The notes under the pieces: generated by a model
What the model was told of the DNA's origin: nothing
Databases searched by the model: none
Seen by the model: only the letters and a program-made list of their open reading frames with translations
Virus record (IMG/VR): IMGVR_UViG_3300024259_000089
Span: 1-37,465 of that record
DNA from: a virus
DNA: 37,465 nucleotides
Direction: 5' to 3' (one strand)
In this document: piece after piece, positions 7,203 to 25,643 of the stretch
Layout: every line of letters begins with the position of its first letter
Position numbering within the stretch: position 1 is the first letter of the stretch
Position numbers and translations under genes: made by a program

Positions 7203-7301
7203 TTTCTGGCAGAGCTGGGGGAATTTTCCGGAATTAACATACAAAATAGTTTATAAAAAAAAGAGTAAAATATAAATTACTTTTAAATAAATATGTTTTG
7301 G

Positions 7302-7326
7302 GAGAGGATTAGTTCCTCTCTTTTTT
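7302..7326 (+). terminator. Rho-independent terminator of the late operon
   Basis: GAGAGGA (7302-7308) pairs perfectly with TCCTCTC (7314-7320) around a 5-base loop, followed at once by six T. It closes the tail/lysis transcription unit. Confidence 0.9.
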
Positions 7327-7356
7327 GTTGATAGATAAAAGATATGGAAAAACTAC

Positions 7357-7385
7357 TTGACAGGCTTTAAAAATTAATATATAAT
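7357..7385 (+). promoter_or_regulatory. Consensus sigma-70-type promoter for the replication operon
   Basis: TTGACA (7357-7362), a 17-base spacer and TATAAT (7380-7385) are both exact consensus hexamers at optimal spacing. Transcription would start near 7391. It lies 31 bases after the late-operon terminator and directs transcription into the structured leader and the replisome organizer gene. Confidence 0.9.
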
Positions 7386-7408
7386 TTTAATAGGTTTTAA
7401 AAGCCTGT
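7360..7408 (+). promoter_or_regulatory. Candidate operator: dyad flanking the -10 box
   Basis: ACAGGCTTTAAAA (7360-7372) has its reverse complement, with one extra A, at 7395-7408. The two arms start in the -35 box and end about 17 bases after the expected transcription start. This placement suits a repressor bound at both arms or a DNA loop. The right arm would also be in the transcript. The regulator is unknown; the HTH protein at 10199 is one candidate. Confidence 0.55.
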
Positions 7409-7547
7409 GGATAAATAAAATTTATATGGACAAAATCTTATCACAATTTAATTCAGCTAAACATATCTTGATTCAAATAGGCTGTCTTTTTTGTTTAAAT
7501 GGGTGTTGTGATAAGCTCCCTGTCCAGACGGAAAGACAGCCTTTTTT
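7391..7547 (+). ncRNA. Structured leader RNA with intrinsic terminator and competing helix
   Basis: The expected transcript from the promoter at 7357-7385 runs about 157 bases to a U-run. Helix A: TGGACA (7427-7432) with TGTCCA (7521-7526), and CTTATCACAA (7437-7446) with TTGTGATAAG (7506-7515). Helix B: GGCTGTCTTT (7480-7489) with AAAGACAGCC (7532-7541), followed by six T (7542-7547). The 5' strand of B lies in the loop of A and its 3' strand outside, so the two are pseudoknotted or mutually exclusive, as in an attenuator. It matches no riboswitch class I know. A stand-alone small RNA is the alternative. Confidence 0.7.
7480..7547 (+). terminator. Intrinsic terminator ending the leader RNA (long loop)
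   Basis: A perfect 10-bp stem (7480-7489 with 7532-7541) is followed directly by six T. The 42-base loop includes the 3' strand of helix A. It sits 24 bases before the ATG of the replisome organizer, so it should limit expression of that operon unless antiterminated. Confidence 0.75.
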
Positions 7548-7570
7548 AATTAAGTATTTTAAATAAATAT

Positions 7571-8296
7571 ATGGGAAATAGAAGAATGTTATCAAATAAA
7601 ATAGTAGATACAGATGCTTTTCTAGATATGGGAACTGGCTCTCAATTATTATATTTTCATTTAGTTATGAGAGCAGATGATGATGGATTTGTATCAAATC
7701 CTAAAAAGATTATGCGAATGATTGGATCACAGGAAGATGATTATAAAGTTCTAATTGCTAAAAGATTTATACTTATTTTTGAGAGTGGCGTGTGTGTAAT
7801 TAAGCATTGGTTAATTCATAATCTAATCCGAAAAGATAGATATATTGAAACTCAATGGGTAAAAGAGAAGAAATTATTATCAATTAAAAAACCAACCAAT
7901 AAATATAGCTTAGATAAAAGTAATACAGGAAATGTCATACCATTCGGCAACCATTCGGCAACCCAAGTTAAGTTAAGTAAAGTTAAGTTAAGTAAAGATA
8001 GAGAGAATACACTAAAAAAACAATTAGAAAAATACATAAATAAATATTCTCCTAATATGTTAAAAGATTTTGAATTGTATTGGACTGAAACTAATTCTAA
8101 AGGAAAAGAAAAATGGCAACTTCAAAAAACTTGGGATATAAATTTAAGACTTCAAAGATGGAAAATACAAGAAGAAAAATATAATCATAAAAATAACCAA
8201 AGTTTTGTGAAAGAAGAACCAAAAGAAGTAGAACGAAAAGTTGGAGTTCATATGGCTGATGGTTTTAAATCTTTTGAAGAAATTACAAATAATTAA
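7571..8296 (+). CDS. Replisome organizer / replication initiator
   Basis: The product has 241 residues. The N-terminal 90 or so (RRMLSNKIVDTDAFLDM, then LLYFHLVMRADDDGFV and FESGVCVIKHWLIHN) fit the winged-helix N-terminal domain of phage replisome organizers common in low-GC phages. A charged linker (about 115-150) contains the duplicated KLSKVKLSK peptide encoded by the iteron-like repeats. The C-terminal part (WTETNSKGKEKWQLQKTWDINLRLQRW) resembles the DnaD/replisome C-terminal region. It should bind the origin inside its own gene and recruit the host helicase. It is the first gene after the promoter and leader RNA. Confidence 0.85.
   Translation: MGNRRMLSNKIVDTDAFLDMGTGSQLLYFHLVMRADDDGFVSNPKKIMRMIGSQEDDYKVLIAKRFILIFESGVCVIKHWLIHNLIRKDRYIETQWVKEKKLLSIKKPTNKYSLDKSNTGNVIPFGNHSATQVKLSKVKLSKDRENTLKKQLEKYINKYSPNMLKDFELYWTETNSKGKEKWQLQKTWDINLRLQRWKIQEEKYNHKNNQSFVKEEPKEVERKVGVHMADGFKSFEEITNN
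7940..7994 (+). repeat. Two sets of tandem iteron-like repeats, candidate replication origin
   Basis: CCATTCGGCAA occurs twice in immediate tandem (7940-7950, 7951-7961). Three bases later a perfect 15-base unit AAGTTAAGTTAAGTA occurs twice in tandem (7965-7979, 7980-7994). Both are inside the replication initiator gene, as in lambda O and many low-GC phages, where initiator-bound iterons mark the origin. The following sequence is A-rich and would melt easily. Confidence 0.7.
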
Positions 8297-8320
8297 ATAA
8301 AAAAACCAATGCTCCAAAAA

Positions 8321-8329
8321 TGGTATAAT
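8321..8329 (+). promoter_or_regulatory. Possible extended -10 promoter
   Basis: TGGTATAAT (8321-8329) is an exact extended -10 element, but no -35 of quality lies 17 bases upstream. It is a weaker candidate than the promoter at 8350-8378. Confidence 0.35.
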
Positions 8330-8349
8330 ACTGTAGCACAAAATAGTTT

Positions 8350-8378
8350 TTGTTTTATAAAACCAATAGCTATATAAT
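8350..8378 (+). promoter_or_regulatory. Promoter for the C5 methyltransferase gene
   Basis: TTGTTT (8350-8355), a 17-base spacer and TATAAT (8373-8378) lie 36 bases before the methyltransferase ATG. A short GACT/AGTC hairpin follows at 8385-8394, near the expected transcript start. Confidence 0.55.
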
Positions 8379-8414
8379 AATTAAGACTAAAAGTCAACCT
8401 ATAATGTTACAACT

Positions 8415-9548
8415 ATGAAATTAAAATATTTATCATTATTCAGTGGAATTGGAGGATTTGAATTAGGAATAGGAAATAAAGCTAAGTGTATTGGTTTCTC
8501 TGAGATAGACAAATATGCTATTCAAGTTTATAAAAAACAATTTAATCATAAAAATTATGGAGATATTACAAAGATCAATGTTCAAGAACTACCAGACTTC
8601 GACCTTATCGTTGGCGGATTCCCTTGCCAAAGTTTCAGCATTGCTGGAAAGCGGGGAGGATTTAAAGACACAAGAGGGACTTTATTTTTTAATATCGCTG
8701 AAATCGCAAGGGTTAAAAAACCTCGTCTTTTACTCCTTGAGAATGTTAAAGGATTGTTGTCGCATAATGAGGGCAATACCTTTGCGACTATCATCTCAAC
8801 CCTTGATGAGTTGGGGTATGACTGTCAATGGCAAGTGCTTAACAGCAAAAACTTCGGAGTGCCACAGAATAGGGAAAGAGTGTTCATTATCGGACATCTT
8901 AGAGGAACAAGTCGACCCAAAGTATTTCCTATCGGAGAAAGCAATGAAGAATCTATTAACAAAACAGACAAGCAAGGGATCGCGAATACACTCACAGGAA
9001 GAAGTGCTAGTGGACACAATAGAAGAGGAAATTATATAAAAACTAAAGAAGTAATAAATCCTCTTAAAGGTAAAACAAAATATGGTTGGCATTGTGAACA
9101 AAATATCTATGACAAAAAAGGAATTACTAGAACTGTTAAAGCTGGAGGTGGTTCTGGTAATATGCCAAAAGTTATTGTTAAAATACCATCAGCTACTAAG
9201 TGTGGATATGAAATAGCTAAAGAGGGAGATAGTATTAGATTGGCTCATATTGGAAGTAAAACAGGTAGGGGTAGAGTTGGAAAACAAAGAAGCCAAACTT
9301 TAACTGCTGGAGGAGATATGCACACATTACATAATTCTAAAATAAGAAGATTAACTCCAAGAGAATGTGAAAGATTACAAGGTTTTCCTGATGATTGGAC
9401 TGAGTATGGAATGGCAGATGTTATTTCTTACGGAAAAAAAGTCGCAAAAGAAATTGTACCAATCTCTGACACTCAAAGATATAAAATGGCGGGAAATGCC
9501 GTCAGTGTACCAGTAATTAAAGCTATTGTAAAAAGATTGATAGTGTGA
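8415..9548 (+). CDS. DNA (cytosine-5) methyltransferase
   Basis: The product has 377 residues with all main C5-methyltransferase motifs in order. Motif I is FSGIGGFELG (9-18), motif IV GGFPCQSFS (67-75) with catalytic Cys71, motif VI ENVKG (109-113), motif VIII QNRERVFIIG (151-160), motif IX RLTPRECERLQGFPDDW (312-328) and motif X GNAVSVPV (360-367). The target-recognition region lies between about 165 and 310. It methylates cytosine in DNA, probably to protect the phage from host restriction; no restriction enzyme is next to it. By hand count, 8581-8640 and 8761-8820 are 47% GC against 27% for 9061-9120, so the 5' half looks imported. A motif X remnant of another copy lies at 10070. Confidence 0.93.
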   Translation: MKLKYLSLFSGIGGFELGIGNKAKCIGFSEIDKYAIQVYKKQFNHKNYGDITKINVQELPDFDLIVGGFPCQSFSIAGKRGGFKDTRGTLFFNIAEIARVKKPRLLLLENVKGLLSHNEGNTFATIISTLDELGYDCQWQVLNSKNFGVPQNRERVFIIGHLRGTSRPKVFPIGESNEESINKTDKQGIANTLTGRSASGHNRRGNYIKTKEVINPLKGKTKYGWHCEQNIYDKKGITRTVKAGGGSGNMPKVIVKIPSATKCGYEIAKEGDSIRLAHIGSKTGRGRVGKQRSQTLTAGGDMHTLHNSKIRRLTPRECERLQGFPDDWTEYGMADVISYGKKVAKEIVPISDTQRYKMAGNAVSVPVIKAIVKRLIV

Positions 9549-13079: not shown

Positions 13080-13361
13080 ATGAGTGATATAAAAGAATTG
13101 AAAGATAATTTTATAAGAGATATATGTGAAGTAGGAGCTTTAGAAGGTTGGATGTCTAAAGGAAAAGTTAGAGGTAAGTTAGATGAAATTGAAGAACACC
13201 ACAACACTAAGTTTGCTAAACTGCTTAAAGATATTGTTGGTGAAAGTAAGAAAAGTTGTTATTGTGATAATCGCAAATGTGCTAATTGTGGCTATAACCA
13301 AAAACGCCAAGAAACCATAGATAAAATAAATAACTCTAGCTTTAAAGATTTAGTTAATTAA
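13080..13361 (+). CDS. Small zinc-binding protein, unknown
   Basis: The product has 93 residues. The N-terminal 60 are helical and charged. Then CYCDNRKCANCGYNQKR (about 60-76) gives four Cys suitable for one zinc ion in a knuckle-like motif. The start has the AAAATATATG context. Regulation or nucleic-acid binding is possible; no family is recognised. Confidence 0.6.
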   Translation: MSDIKELKDNFIRDICEVGALEGWMSKGKVRGKLDEIEEHHNTKFAKLLKDIVGESKKSCYCDNRKCANCGYNQKRQETIDKINNSSFKDLVN

Positions 13362-13440
13362 GTTGTGGGGTGGATATATTACTAGATAAATATATTTAGA
13401 TAACACGCGTTAACAATGTGCAAATCCTTGCCCCCACAAC
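13362..13440 (+). ncRNA. Candidate structured RNA with 9-bp closing stem
   Basis: GTTGTGGGG (13362-13370) pairs perfectly with CCCCACAAC (13432-13440). Inside, GGAT/ATCC extends the stem after a small internal loop. Two hairpins follow: ATATT/AATAT, and TAAC-ACGC-GTTA (13401-13412). The 79-base size suggests a tRNA, but the position-8 T, the T-loop and the anticodon arm do not fit. It begins at the base after the preceding TAA. Its GC-rich stem stands out in this AT-rich genome. Confidence 0.45.
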
Positions 13441-13455
13441 CTAGTTAATTAAATA

Positions 13456-13556
13456 AGGTGGTGCTAAGATGTTAGCAGAGGATTAAAAGACTACTGTAAA
13501 GGCTTAGTTAAATGGATATGAACCAAGTGTTCAGATAGGTATAACCCCAGCCACTA
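13456..13556 (+). ncRNA. Second candidate structured RNA
   Basis: GGTGG (13457-13461) pairs with CCACT (13551-13555) to close a multi-branch fold. Inside are a perfect 6-bp hairpin, TGCTAA-GATG-TTAGCA (13462-13477), and TGAAC-CAAGT-GTTCA (13519-13533). No long open frame crosses it. It lies 16 bases after the first candidate. It fails tRNA criteria: a 4-base D-loop and no anticodon stem. Confidence 0.4.
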
Positions 13557-13582
13557 TAAATATTAAAAATAAATAAAAATAT

Positions 13583-14382: not shown

Positions 14383-14796
14383 ATGAAAAACTTTTATTCT
14401 AAAACAAACGAAGAAGGATTAGCTAGTGATGATTTGTTTTCTGATATTAAAGAATATATTAAAACTTTAAAAGATAGGTATATTAAAATTGAAGTTAGTA
14501 TTAAAAGAAAGCTTAGAAGTAATAGTCAGAATAATTTATATTGGGCCACTTTGGATCTAATTGCAAAGGAAGCTAATAATCAAGGAGGAGAGATTAAATA
14601 TACAGCAGATGATTTTCACTTTGCTTTCAGAGAAATGTTTTTAACAACTAGAAGAGGTTTAATCAAAAAAATACAAAGCACAACAGGATTAAATACTAAA
14701 GAGTTTGGGGAATATTTAGAGAAAATAAAAGTATGGGTTTGGGAGCATTTAAGCTCTAAATTTATATTTCCGAATCCATCTGACCTATATTTATGA
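14383..14796 (+). CDS. NinB-like recombination protein
   Basis: The product has 137 residues. RKLRSNSQNNLYWATLDLIAKE, the middle part with DDFHFAFREMFL, and STTGLNTKEFGEYLEKIKVW with FPNP near the end follow the NinB (lambda Orf) pattern. NinB acts with SSB and ERF- or Red-type annealing proteins in phage recombination; both partners are encoded upstream. The stop overlaps the next ATG (ATGA at 14793), where an HNH gene follows. Confidence 0.75.
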   Translation: MKNFYSKTNEEGLASDDLFSDIKEYIKTLKDRYIKIEVSIKRKLRSNSQNNLYWATLDLIAKEANNQGGEIKYTADDFHFAFREMFLTTRRGLIKKIQSTTGLNTKEFGEYLEKIKVWVWEHLSSKFIFPNPSDLYL

Positions 14797-20701: not shown

Positions 20702-21426
20702 ATAAACATATTATAACTTGCGTAGCAGTTAATTGGTGGGGTAAAGACTTTGCTGATTTATTAATTAATACATCTTTATTAAAATCAACTCATCCGACAA
20801 ATATAGAAATAGTTATAGTAGATAATTCAGGAGAATTAAAAGAAGAAGATTATGTCTTTTATGAAAAAGAAGGTGCTAATATAAAAATTATAAAGCCTGA
20901 AAAGAATCTAGGACACGGAAAAGGAATGGATCTAGGAATACAAGAAGCTCAAGGAGAATATATTTTAGCTATGGATATTGATGCACATATCTTATTACAG
21001 GATTGGGATGAAAAATTAGTTGAATATTATACAGATAAAGATATAAGATTATTGGGAGCCGAAGGATGCCCTTTAAAACCTATGCGACCTGCAGTAATGT
21101 TTTTTAGAAAAGATTGGTTTATGGATAATAAGATGAGCTTTGAAGCTCGAGAATTTGATGGAGTTAAGTTTGATGTAGGACAACACTTTTATTTCAAAAC
21201 CCTTTCTTTAGGTGGCAGAGCTGAATTTTTAAGATGGAAAAAAAATGAATATAAAGATTGTATGGGTGAGGAGTACAGTTTCTTTAATGAAAGAGCATTC
21301 TTCCATCACTGGTGGGGTACTAGATTCTTTGGACCAGACGGCACAGTAGTTCATAAAGAGGTTGATGGTATTCCTTATGAGAAGCTATTAGATAGTAAAG
21401 CTAGTTTATTTAATCAAGTTAAGTAG
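20698..21426 (+). CDS. GT2-family glycosyltransferase
   Basis: The product has 242 residues. It has the GT2 start (ITCVAVNWWGKD), IEIVIVDNSGE (36-46), IIKPEKNLGHGKGMDLGI (64-81) and AMDIDAHI (91-98), whose DxD is the metal and nucleotide-sugar site. The second half keeps GEEYSFFNERAFFHHWWG with an acceptor-site acid pair. It transfers a sugar from a nucleotide donor in the cytoplasm. It has no membrane segment. It is the last gene of the cassette. Confidence 0.87.
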   Translation: MNKHIITCVAVNWWGKDFADLLINTSLLKSTHPTNIEIVIVDNSGELKEEDYVFYEKEGANIKIIKPEKNLGHGKGMDLGIQEAQGEYILAMDIDAHILLQDWDEKLVEYYTDKDIRLLGAEGCPLKPMRPAVMFFRKDWFMDNKMSFEAREFDGVKFDVGQHFYFKTLSLGGRAEFLRWKKNEYKDCMGEEYSFFNERAFFHHWWGTRFFGPDGTVVHKEVDGIPYEKLLDSKASLFNQVK

Positions 21427-21505
21427 CACTCCCCTACTCTCCCCCAGTGCTATTTTAAGCCATCCTGAGCATTTTAAGGGTATGGGGTGTAGTAGAGGAG
21501 AGTAG
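21425..21505 (+). other. Interlocked intergenic RNA structure after the glycan cassette
   Basis: AGCACT (21425-21430) pairs with AGTGCT (21446-21451). The C-rich loop segment CTACTCTCC (21434-21442) is a perfect 9-base complement of GGAGAGTAG (21497-21505). The two helices interlock as a pseudoknot. A short A/T stretch, not a clear U-run, follows the first hairpin. It may end or separate the glycan and packaging transcripts. Confidence 0.5.
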
Positions 21506-21529
21506 TATTATAAATAAAACAAAAAAGTT

Positions 21530-21835
21530 ATGTTTGACAAAGTACGTAAGGCATTTAAAAGAGATAAAAAAAAGGATTTAGCAGAAAGAAGAGAAGCATT
21601 TATTACTGGTTATAATAAACTAATCGAAGAAACCAGAATGTGTTTTAAATATGGAGCAGAACCTTTGAAGAAAAACCCTGCTTTTTTTCAAGTTATTGCT
21701 ACTCCAGTAGATTGTACTGCAATGCTCGAGCAGGTTAAAGCTGAGAAAGAAGCCGAAGAAAAGAAGATAAAAGATGAAGAAGCTCTAAAAAATGCTAAGG
21801 ATAATGTAGCTAAAGATACTAAAGAGAATAAATGA
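21530..21835 (+). CDS. Charged helical protein upstream of packaging genes, unknown
   Basis: The product has 101 residues. The first 16 are strongly basic. The last 35 (VKAEKEAEEKKIKDEEALKN) are a charged coiled coil. It could bind DNA or act in head assembly, but no family is recognised. Its stop overlaps a short downstream frame in an ATGA junction. Confidence 0.6.
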   Translation: MFDKVRKAFKRDKKKDLAERREAFITGYNKLIEETRMCFKYGAEPLKKNPAFFQVIATPVDCTAMLEQVKAEKEAEEKKIKDEEALKNAKDNVAKDTKENK

Positions 21836-24049: not shown

Positions 24050-24220
24050 ATGCCAAATTTAAACACAAATGAAAGATGGTGGTTTGATAAAATTAGAGAA
24101 ATGATTAAGAATACTCGATTTGGAAAAATCGAAGTATCTCTGACTATTAATAACTGCAATGTTTCCACAGTGAAAGAGAAAACTGAGAAGAGCCATAGTT
24201 TTAATAATGATAAATTATAG
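24050..24220 (+). CDS. Small unknown protein before the portal leader
   Basis: The product has 56 residues. A Trp-Trp pair near residue 11 and a basic helix (DKIREMIKNTRFGKIE) are followed by a strand and a polar tail. It starts 11 bases after the preceding small gene. No family is recognised. Confidence 0.5.
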   Translation: MPNLNTNERWWFDKIREMIKNTRFGKIEVSLTINNCNVSTVKEKTEKSHSFNNDKL

Positions 24221-24301
24221 GGCTTTACTTTTTTATAAATATATGTTAAACTTAGAATAGGGTTAGTTTTGTGTGGGATATCTTTTCATACATTTTGTTT
24301 G

Positions 24302-24350
24302 CTTATTGATTAGGGGAGGGGGAGTATATCAAGTCTCCCCCGTCAATAAG
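24302..24350 (+). other. Long hairpin in the portal leader
   Basis: CTTATTGA (24302-24309) pairs with TCAATAAG (24343-24350), and GGGGGAG (24318-24324) with CTCCCCC (24335-24341). An unpaired TTAGGGGA on one side interrupts the stem. This is the most GC-rich hairpin of the window. There is no U-run after it; it may be an aptamer-like or mRNA-processing element. Confidence 0.6.
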
Positions 24351-24365
24351 TTAAAAAACCTTATA

Positions 24366-24385
24366 TCCTGCGAGGAACTCGAGGA
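24366..24385 (+). promoter_or_regulatory. Candidate antiterminator hairpin
   Basis: TCCT-G-CGAG (24366-24374) pairs with CTCGAGGA (24378-24385) around a GAA loop. Its 3' strand uses GAGGA, the first bases of the terminator stem at 24381. The two hairpins therefore exclude each other. Confidence 0.5.
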
Positions 24386-24414
24386 TGCCAATATTATTTG
24401 GTGTCCTCTTTTTT
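24381..24414 (+). terminator. Rho-independent terminator before the portal gene
   Basis: GAGGATGCCAA (24381-24391) pairs fully with TTGGTGTCCTC (24398-24408), including two G-U pairs, around a TATTAT loop. Six T follow (24409-24414). It lies 15 bases before the portal ATG, so it should act as an attenuator of the structural operon. Confidence 0.85.
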
Positions 24415-24428
24415 ATTAAAAAATTATT

Positions 24429-25643
24429 ATGAATATAGGAAATAGAATAAAGTTAGCATTCACTAAGAAACGAAGTATGAATGTTTTATTTAAAGATTTA
24501 TATAGTAATGCTACTGGTTGGAAATCTATATTAAATACTGCTACTAGCCAATTAGGAGTTTATGCTTCATCTTTGTATGTTTACGCTTGTGTAAAGGTTA
24601 GAGGAGAAAAGACATCAGAACTTTTAGATTTTAAAGTGATTAATAAGAAAACTAAAAAAGAAGTTGAAAATAGTAATCTAGTTAATGTTTTAAATAAACC
24701 TAATGAATATCAAACTAAAGAAGAATTTTTTGAACGCTACCAAACTTATAAAGATTTAACAGGTAGTGTTTTTGTTTATGTTATTAGAAAAGGTGAAGAT
24801 AATATATCTGGAGATATTCAATCATTCTATTTATTGCAACCAGATTATATTACTATTCAGATGAATGATGATAATACTGCAATAGCTGGTTTTAAATCTA
24901 GTGATCCAAACTTAGCAAAGAAAGAATATAAACCAGAAGAAATTATATTTAGTTTAACTCCTAATCCTTTAAGTGCATTACAAGGTTTAAGTCCATTAAG
25001 ACCGGGAGCTTATAGTATTGATACTGAAAAGCAATTATGCGAGTATCAAAATAAAGTTTTAAAGAATGGTGGAAAGGTTGAAGGTATATTTACATTTAAG
25101 ATAGATACTTTGACTAAACAACAACTAGAAGAATTAAAAGAAAAATATAATGAACAATATGCTGAAGCAAAGAAATCAGGTAATCCTTTATTCTTAGGTG
25201 GTGATAGTAAATATGAAAAGTTAGCATTAACTCCAACTGAACTAAGTTATTTAGAAACTAAGAATATTAATAGAAATGATGTATTTGTTCTTTATAAAGT
25301 TCCTAAGACCTTACTAGGGCTCACAGATGGCGTTCAGAAGGGTAATTATGAAGAAACTGAGAGAATGTTCATTAAGAACACAGTTTATCCTTTAATAAGG
25401 AATTTAGTGGCTAAGTTTAATACCTTAACAGAAGATAATGAAATATTGATTAGTCCAGATCCAACTCCTGAAGATACCGAAGCTGTAAATAGTAAAATAG
25501 AAAGTGGTGGAACTCATCATTATATGACTATTAACGAGATGAGAGATTTACAAGGATTAGATCCATTGTCAGAAGGCGATGTTATATTAGTTCCTTTCGG
25601 TTTAACTGAATTAGGATCTGAACCAGATTTACCAAAAGAATAA
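24429..25643 (+). CDS. Portal protein (HK97-type)
   Basis: The product has 404 residues, about the usual length of HK97-type portals. Recognisable blocks are VYACVKVRGEKTSELL (51-66), NKPNEYQTKEEFFERY (89-104), the LNPLSALQGLSPLRPGAYSI-like segment around 179-196, LKNGGKVEGIF (218-228) and KVPKTLLGLTDG (291-302). It forms the ring for DNA entry and exit at one capsid vertex and docks the terminase and head-tail connector. The gene follows an attenuator-like leader and is followed after one base by the Mu F-like gene. Confidence 0.9.
   Translation: MNIGNRIKLAFTKKRSMNVLFKDLYSNATGWKSILNTATSQLGVYASSLYVYACVKVRGEKTSELLDFKVINKKTKKEVENSNLVNVLNKPNEYQTKEEFFERYQTYKDLTGSVFVYVIRKGEDNISGDIQSFYLLQPDYITIQMNDDNTAIAGFKSSDPNLAKKEYKPEEIIFSLTPNPLSALQGLSPLRPGAYSIDTEKQLCEYQNKVLKNGGKVEGIFTFKIDTLTKQQLEELKEKYNEQYAEAKKSGNPLFLGGDSKYEKLALTPTELSYLETKNINRNDVFVLYKVPKTLLGLTDGVQKGNYEETERMFIKNTVYPLIRNLVAKFNTLTEDNEILISPDPTPEDTEAVNSKIESGGTHHYMTINEMRDLQGLDPLSEGDVILVPFGLTELGSEPDLPKE

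Follow-up and report, generated by a model that had tools for sequence, protein, structure and literature searches.

Interleaved helices in the leader of a phage replication operon, and the same layout before DnaD-like genes of other phages

The leader of a phage replication operon can form two helices, A and B, whose strands alternate along the RNA, and this interleaved layout recurs at about 30 loci in phages, most of them ahead of DnaD-like genes and some ahead of other genes. The leader lies in a 37,465-nucleotide stretch of viral DNA (IMG/VR record IMGVR_UViG_3300024259_000089, positions 1 to 37,465), which we call the window. The helix sequences are largely unrelated from locus to locus. 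Since unrelated phages carry the layout with differing sequences, it probably represents a kind of genetic on/off switch that has not been described before, and not a one-off. Our preferred reading, which we hold with modest confidence, is that the element is a cis-acting leader switch, or attenuator, in which helix A would mean ON and helix B would mean OFF.

The leader in the window

The leader lies behind an intrinsic terminator at the end of the upstream operon (7300-7328, + strand), which is the sole terminator-like match in the region. Its sigma-70 promoter (TTGACA-17-TATAAT, 7357-7385, + strand) is a 12/12 match, as had been claimed, and the position of this promoter predicts a transcript start near 7391. 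Astride the promoter is an imperfect inverted repeat (7360-7408; ACAGGCTTTAAAA at 7360-7372 and TTTTAAAAGCCTGT at 7395-7408) that, as read from the sequence, is a possible operator; in the computed fold, its 3' part also gives a small 5' hairpin. A perfect DnaA box (TTATCCACA) is on the - strand at 7406-7414.

Helix A has the 16 pairs in two blocks that the original prediction described. Its 5' strand (7427-7446) and 3' strand (7506-7526), both on the + strand, form an outer block of 6 pairs (TGGACA/TGTCCA, 7427-7432 with 7521-7526) and an inner block of 10 pairs (CTTATCACAA/TTGTGATAAG, 7437-7446 with 7506-7515). Helix B, also on the + strand, pairs 7479-7489 with 7532-7542 (AGGCTGTCTTT/AAAGACAGCCT). 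We counted 11 pairs in B instead of the 10 first reported; the T6 run at 7542-7547 is as reported, and with it the 3' strand makes up an intrinsic terminator (7532-7547). The strands are in the interleaved order A5-B5-A3-B3, and the gap from A3 to B3 is indeed five bases (7527-7531). The terminator ends 24 nt before the start codon of the regulated gene, which encodes a DnaD-like helicase loader (7571-8296, + strand; PHROG 5708, E = 6.6e-63) and is the first gene of the replication operon. Within this gene, iteron-like repeats at 7965-8000 (AAGTTAAGTTAAGTAAAGTTAAG) code for KLSKVKLSK, and related proteins contain similar GKxRLGK runs; the repeats are perhaps the phage origin.

Within the 200 nt ahead of the ATG, the top-scoring interleaved pair of helices reached -40.0, and just 1 of 4,000 dinucleotide shuffles was as good. 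Plain folding of 7391-7547 gave a z of only -2.1 because the plain model cannot count both helices together. When we computed the folding of the growing RNA, transcripts up to 7532 were in the A form (P > 0.999), which lasted until the 3' arm of B had been made. In the complete RNA (7391-7547), the A form (-34.1 kcal/mol) and the B form (-34.7 kcal/mol) are 0.6 kcal/mol apart. The original prediction that A and B cannot form together needs one refinement. The full 16-pair helix A is incompatible with B, but if A were reduced to its inner 10 pairs, both helices could stand as an ordinary pseudoknot, with linkers of 32, 16, and 16 nt that are sterically feasible. Therefore, it is likely, but not certain, that A and B are mutually exclusive in the window.

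We found no DNA-level homologue of the window's leader in phage and plasmid records: the only matches were short and AT-rich, and we rejected them as due to chance. As the window's leader has no close homologue, the compensatory changes that the original prediction called for come from other members (see below). With the covariance models of Rfam 15, no family matched the window, at the gathering cutoff or at E ≤ 10, or 20 of its relatives, at the gathering threshold. This is consistent with the earlier view that the leader is outside the known riboswitch classes.

Other gaps in the window are also structured. Between the terminase and the portal gene (24429) is a structured leader (24205-24430; interleaved z of -4.4) whose terminator hairpin (GAGGATGCC/GGTGTCCTC, T6) immediately precedes the portal gene. 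At 21426-21530, TAGCACT/AGTGCTA is interleaved with a C-rich/G-rich pair in the gap before an ORF (21530) without a Shine-Dalgarno site. The gene starts at 8250-8415 and at about 14690-14793 have interleaved scores beyond those of 60 shuffles. Finally, a 220-nt structured gap before a 74-amino-acid ORF (13361-13582) has a very stable long-range hairpin of 22 pairs and is a putative RNA.

Relatives of the leader and selection on the RNA

Because the leader lacks a DNA-level homologue, we used DnaD-like genes as anchors for its relatives and scored the 200 nt before each start codon. DnaD-like genes of the window's kind are rare (2 of 380 sampled genomes). In the first DnaD-anchored set, z relative to shuffles ranged from -2.3 to -12.7 (L009, -12.7; L004, -11.3; L028, -7.0; L047, -6.1; L002, -5.7; L006, -5.7; L032, -5.4; L020, -4.2; L017, -3.6). 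In a second set, the interleaved pair was beyond the shuffles at L175, L173, L281, L278, L170, L234, and L190. Of the 44 genes in this set that lack a Shine-Dalgarno site, 11 reached a z of -4 or below, versus 3 of the 101 that have one, and most relatives with an ordinary Shine-Dalgarno site scored near zero. The detector gives the best-scoring pair automatically; we re-read L006, L007, L009, L017, L191, L207, L321, and L020 by eye. A first, looser pattern was also tried, and most of its matches were rejected as chance.

Some loci had other features. L303 (2300-2500), a prophage-like locus in a Selenomonadaceae MAG, has an interleaved pair with L2 = L3 = 0 and a z of -8.0, followed by an ordinary Shine-Dalgarno site. 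Large and different structured leaders precede DnaD-like genes without a Shine-Dalgarno site at L026 (2700-3000) and L248 (2300-2500), and neither leader matched Rfam or a tRNA. We rejected a tRNA-like reading of the L026 leader, since the tRNA search was empty, and also an HDV-like or hammerhead ribozyme, since no catalytic core was found when the sequences were read.

A compact subtype (L004, L017, L207, L321, L339, L335, L191, L366, L049, and others) has a helix A of NCCUUGCR/YGCAAGGN or near it (CCUUGCG/CGCAAGG). B5 is directly behind A5, (U)ACU is ahead of A3, and B3 is directly behind A3, so that linkers of about 0, 3-4, and 0 nt join a helix A of 8 pairs to a helix B of 15-27 pairs. Because all of the linkers are 0-4 nt, the geometry implies that A and B would be unable to coexist in one molecule, though they share no strand. 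L176 and L190 have a wholly different A sequence in the same or nearly the same layout. The loci matched by a pattern of the A strands only also carry helix B at short linkers, with an ORF start close behind. A search for the compact layout across 2.5 Mb of loci gave 14 matches with a score of at least 30, among them L090, which resembles coding sequence; the reversed control gave 1.

The original prediction placed the element before a replication initiator. This is correct for the window, but the element is not limited to such genes. As labeled from their N-terminal sequences, the genes behind it include a tyrosine recombinase-like gene (L335), another DnaD-like gene (L339), and genes for secreted or membrane proteins (L338 and L072). 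At L072/L117, the compact element is between terminase-like and portal-like genes, ahead of a small ORF. What links the long-arm form in the window to the compact subtype appears to be only its layout, its position, the gene behind it, and the DnaA box.

In 18 of the 30 members, versus 3.2% of shuffles, the 120 nt upstream of A5 contain a DnaA box with at least 8 of 9 matching positions, and 8 of the 30 have a perfect box (0.27% of shuffles). Fourteen of the 30 have their own + strand promoter, versus 11% of shuffles. The element appears to belong to phages. We rejected a general element of host 5' untranslated regions, as it was absent from the sampled host chromosomes beyond the control level: the A-motif pattern was found in 1 of 287 Patescibacteria-like genomes (the phylum of L278, Moraniibacteriota), no compact element with a score of at least 30 was found in 556 kb of Patescibacteria-like DNA, and the pattern was at the control level in 150 genomes from the phylum of L321's genome.

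The helices have far more G-U than A-C mismatches. With the two kinds equally penalized, there were 67 G-U versus 13 A-C mismatches, including those from a few loci with misassigned helices, and there were 45 versus 4 in the curated helices. Because G-U is tolerated only in the sense RNA, this bias shows that the sense-strand RNA is under selection. In alignment A2, 98.8% of helix A is paired, versus 27-50% when the strands are slid, and 6 cells are doubly changed, versus 2.2 in shuffles; 4 of the 8 A pairs are invariant in this alignment, and part of the set came from a pattern containing those pairs. In members that were found without the A pattern, the inner A positions stay paired via two to four pair types, and L007, L028, L176, and L190 have quite different A pairs.

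A proposed switch and its alternatives

Known attenuators and riboswitches usually switch via two helices that compete for one strand. In the switch that we propose, exclusion would instead come from interleaving and near-zero linkers. As transcription proceeds from the promoter at 7357, A5, B5, and A3 would emerge first, and the computed folding predicts that A closes and keeps B5 in its loop. While A stands, B would be blocked, and RNA polymerase would continue through to the DnaD-like gene (ON). Failure of A to form, or its opening, would let B form (OFF). In the window, the OFF form would be the intrinsic terminator that ends 24 nt short of the start codon; in other members, it would be a B hairpin that buries Shine-Dalgarno-like purines. 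The trigger could be a phage protein, an RNA that acts by base pairing, or promoter activity linked to DnaA.

Nearly all of the members form A first and B last in folding, with a few of these results based on partial helices, and in the completed RNA B is at least as stable as A or about equal to it. In the compact members, B is computed to be far more stable than A, and therefore A would be only transient there and would delay B. A U-run follows B in about half of the members. In several of the others, B3 ends in Shine-Dalgarno-like purines 8-18 nt before the ATG; some of these sites, at 15-18 nt, are too far from it. A terminator or a buried ribosome site would be the usual pair of expression platforms, which is why we read A as ON and B as OFF. 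The original suggestion of attenuator logic is supported: other phages have the layout, made of different helix sequences, ahead of their DnaD-like genes; compensatory changes are present across members; A forms first in the nascent RNA; and Rfam has no matching family. The suggestion of a riboswitch, in the small-molecule sense, is not supported, as there is no conserved aptamer core and the downstream genes are unrelated.

Several alternatives share part of this evidence. The leader might be an antisense-controlled attenuator like those of pT181 repC and pIP501 repR, in which case a countertranscript arising at the DnaD gene start would pair with the leader, block A, and let the terminator form, as a copy control of replication. 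The YUNR rule describes fast antisense pairing, and in the CUUGCG subtype the B-form loop before A3 (ACUCG) fits it. The gene context and the terminator position are as in the plasmid systems (PMC5703833), where an ON helix in the leader of a replication initiator stops an intrinsic terminator just before the gene; the early formation of A, the near-equal energies of the full RNA, and the T6 run, as computed here, add to the likeness. However, the pre-emptor of pT181 takes the terminator's 5' arm as its pairing partner, so that one strand is common to both helices (PMC5703833), whereas A5/A3 and B5/B3 in the window do not overlap, and exclusion would be by interleaving. The terminator stem of pT181 is also predicted to contain the ribosome binding site (PMC5703833, PMC4878617). 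The window has a minus-strand promoter (TTGATA-18-TATATT, 7595-7566, 10/12), and similar ones are present in L004 and L170, but the window's is inside conserved coding sequence. Across the members, minus-strand promoters were not clearly enriched (10 of 30, versus 20% of shuffles), so we set aside an antisense promoter as a common feature; that no general one was found is another difference from pT181 and pIP501. Overall, antisense control seems rather unlikely. It is unlikely, too, that A and B stand together as an H-type pseudoknot with a protein or a ligand as its binding partner. The interleaved order is conserved, and in the window the loops of 32, 16, and 16 nt would make this sterically possible. 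The preQ1-I and SAM-II riboswitches, which are H-type pseudoknots, also have two interleaved helices in a short leader before a gene; their ligand-binding loops are conserved and both helices coexist. In contrast, the compact linkers (about 0, 3-4, and 0 nt around helices of 8 and 15-27 pairs) are too short for coexistence, and the loop nucleotides vary, save for the ACU before A3 in one subtype.

Ribosome-mediated attenuation would act via translation of a possible upstream ORF of 46 codons (7426-7566, + strand), which runs across both helices, stops 4 nt before the DnaD start, and is equaled in 0.5% of shuffles; a Pfam search with its product gave no match. ORFs also run across the element in L170, L175, and L281, but most members have none across the switching helices, the peptides are unrelated, and there is no evident Shine-Dalgarno site or run of regulatory codons, which makes this explanation quite unlikely, though it may apply to the window. 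It is improbable that the leader, once terminated, acts in trans to shut down its own operon or that of a rival phage, as in the immunity of P4 (CI) and P1 (c4). In these systems, too, an RNA causes transcription to end prematurely ahead of phage replication genes, and one transcript contains complementary stretches (PMC4825925). The source of the P4 CI RNA is likewise a transcript that is not translated, that controls replication genes, and that pairs with copies upstream and downstream (PMC4825925). However, P4 CI immunity requires a second downstream target (PMC4825925), and among the 25 members tested, only L338 has one: a second copy of one site (AACCUUGC / AACCTTGC), past helix B and just before the ATG, which recalls seqA-seqB-seqC of P4. 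The other 24 lack a comparable copy, and Rfam gave no match. We consider a stand-alone small RNA whose position ahead of the gene is incidental, a possibility raised originally, to be very improbable: the promoter and terminator do bound a transcript of 157 nt, but B ends 7-29 nt before the ATG in most of the DnaD-linked members, and the terminator's U-run is missing in many members. A DNA-level origin element (a single-strand hairpin or cruciform) by the DnaA boxes would fit the enrichment of these boxes and the iteron-like repeats within the DnaD gene. This is extremely doubtful given the strong bias toward G-U over A-C, which shows selection on the sense-strand RNA, and given that elements are also found ahead of genes unrelated to replication.

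Returning to the cis-acting leader switch, we tentatively suggest, as a possibility that falls somewhat short of probable, that these leaders are a new class of phage regulatory RNA. The ON and OFF helices would share no strand, and their interleaving, with linkers near zero, would be the sole reason that one excludes the other; the output would be a terminator or a buried ribosome site; and the element would often lie by a DnaA box, before different genes, in otherwise unrelated phages. Titles and abstracts of the literature on interleaved leaders, new phage RNA classes, and leaders without Shine-Dalgarno sites contained no description of it, which is not proof of novelty. If true, topology alone would do the switching in this family, which would add a new design to RNA control. 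The leader switch would also be a handle on the timing of replication genes in phages of uncultured hosts, and the leaders may be ready-made parts for tests of cotranscriptional folding.
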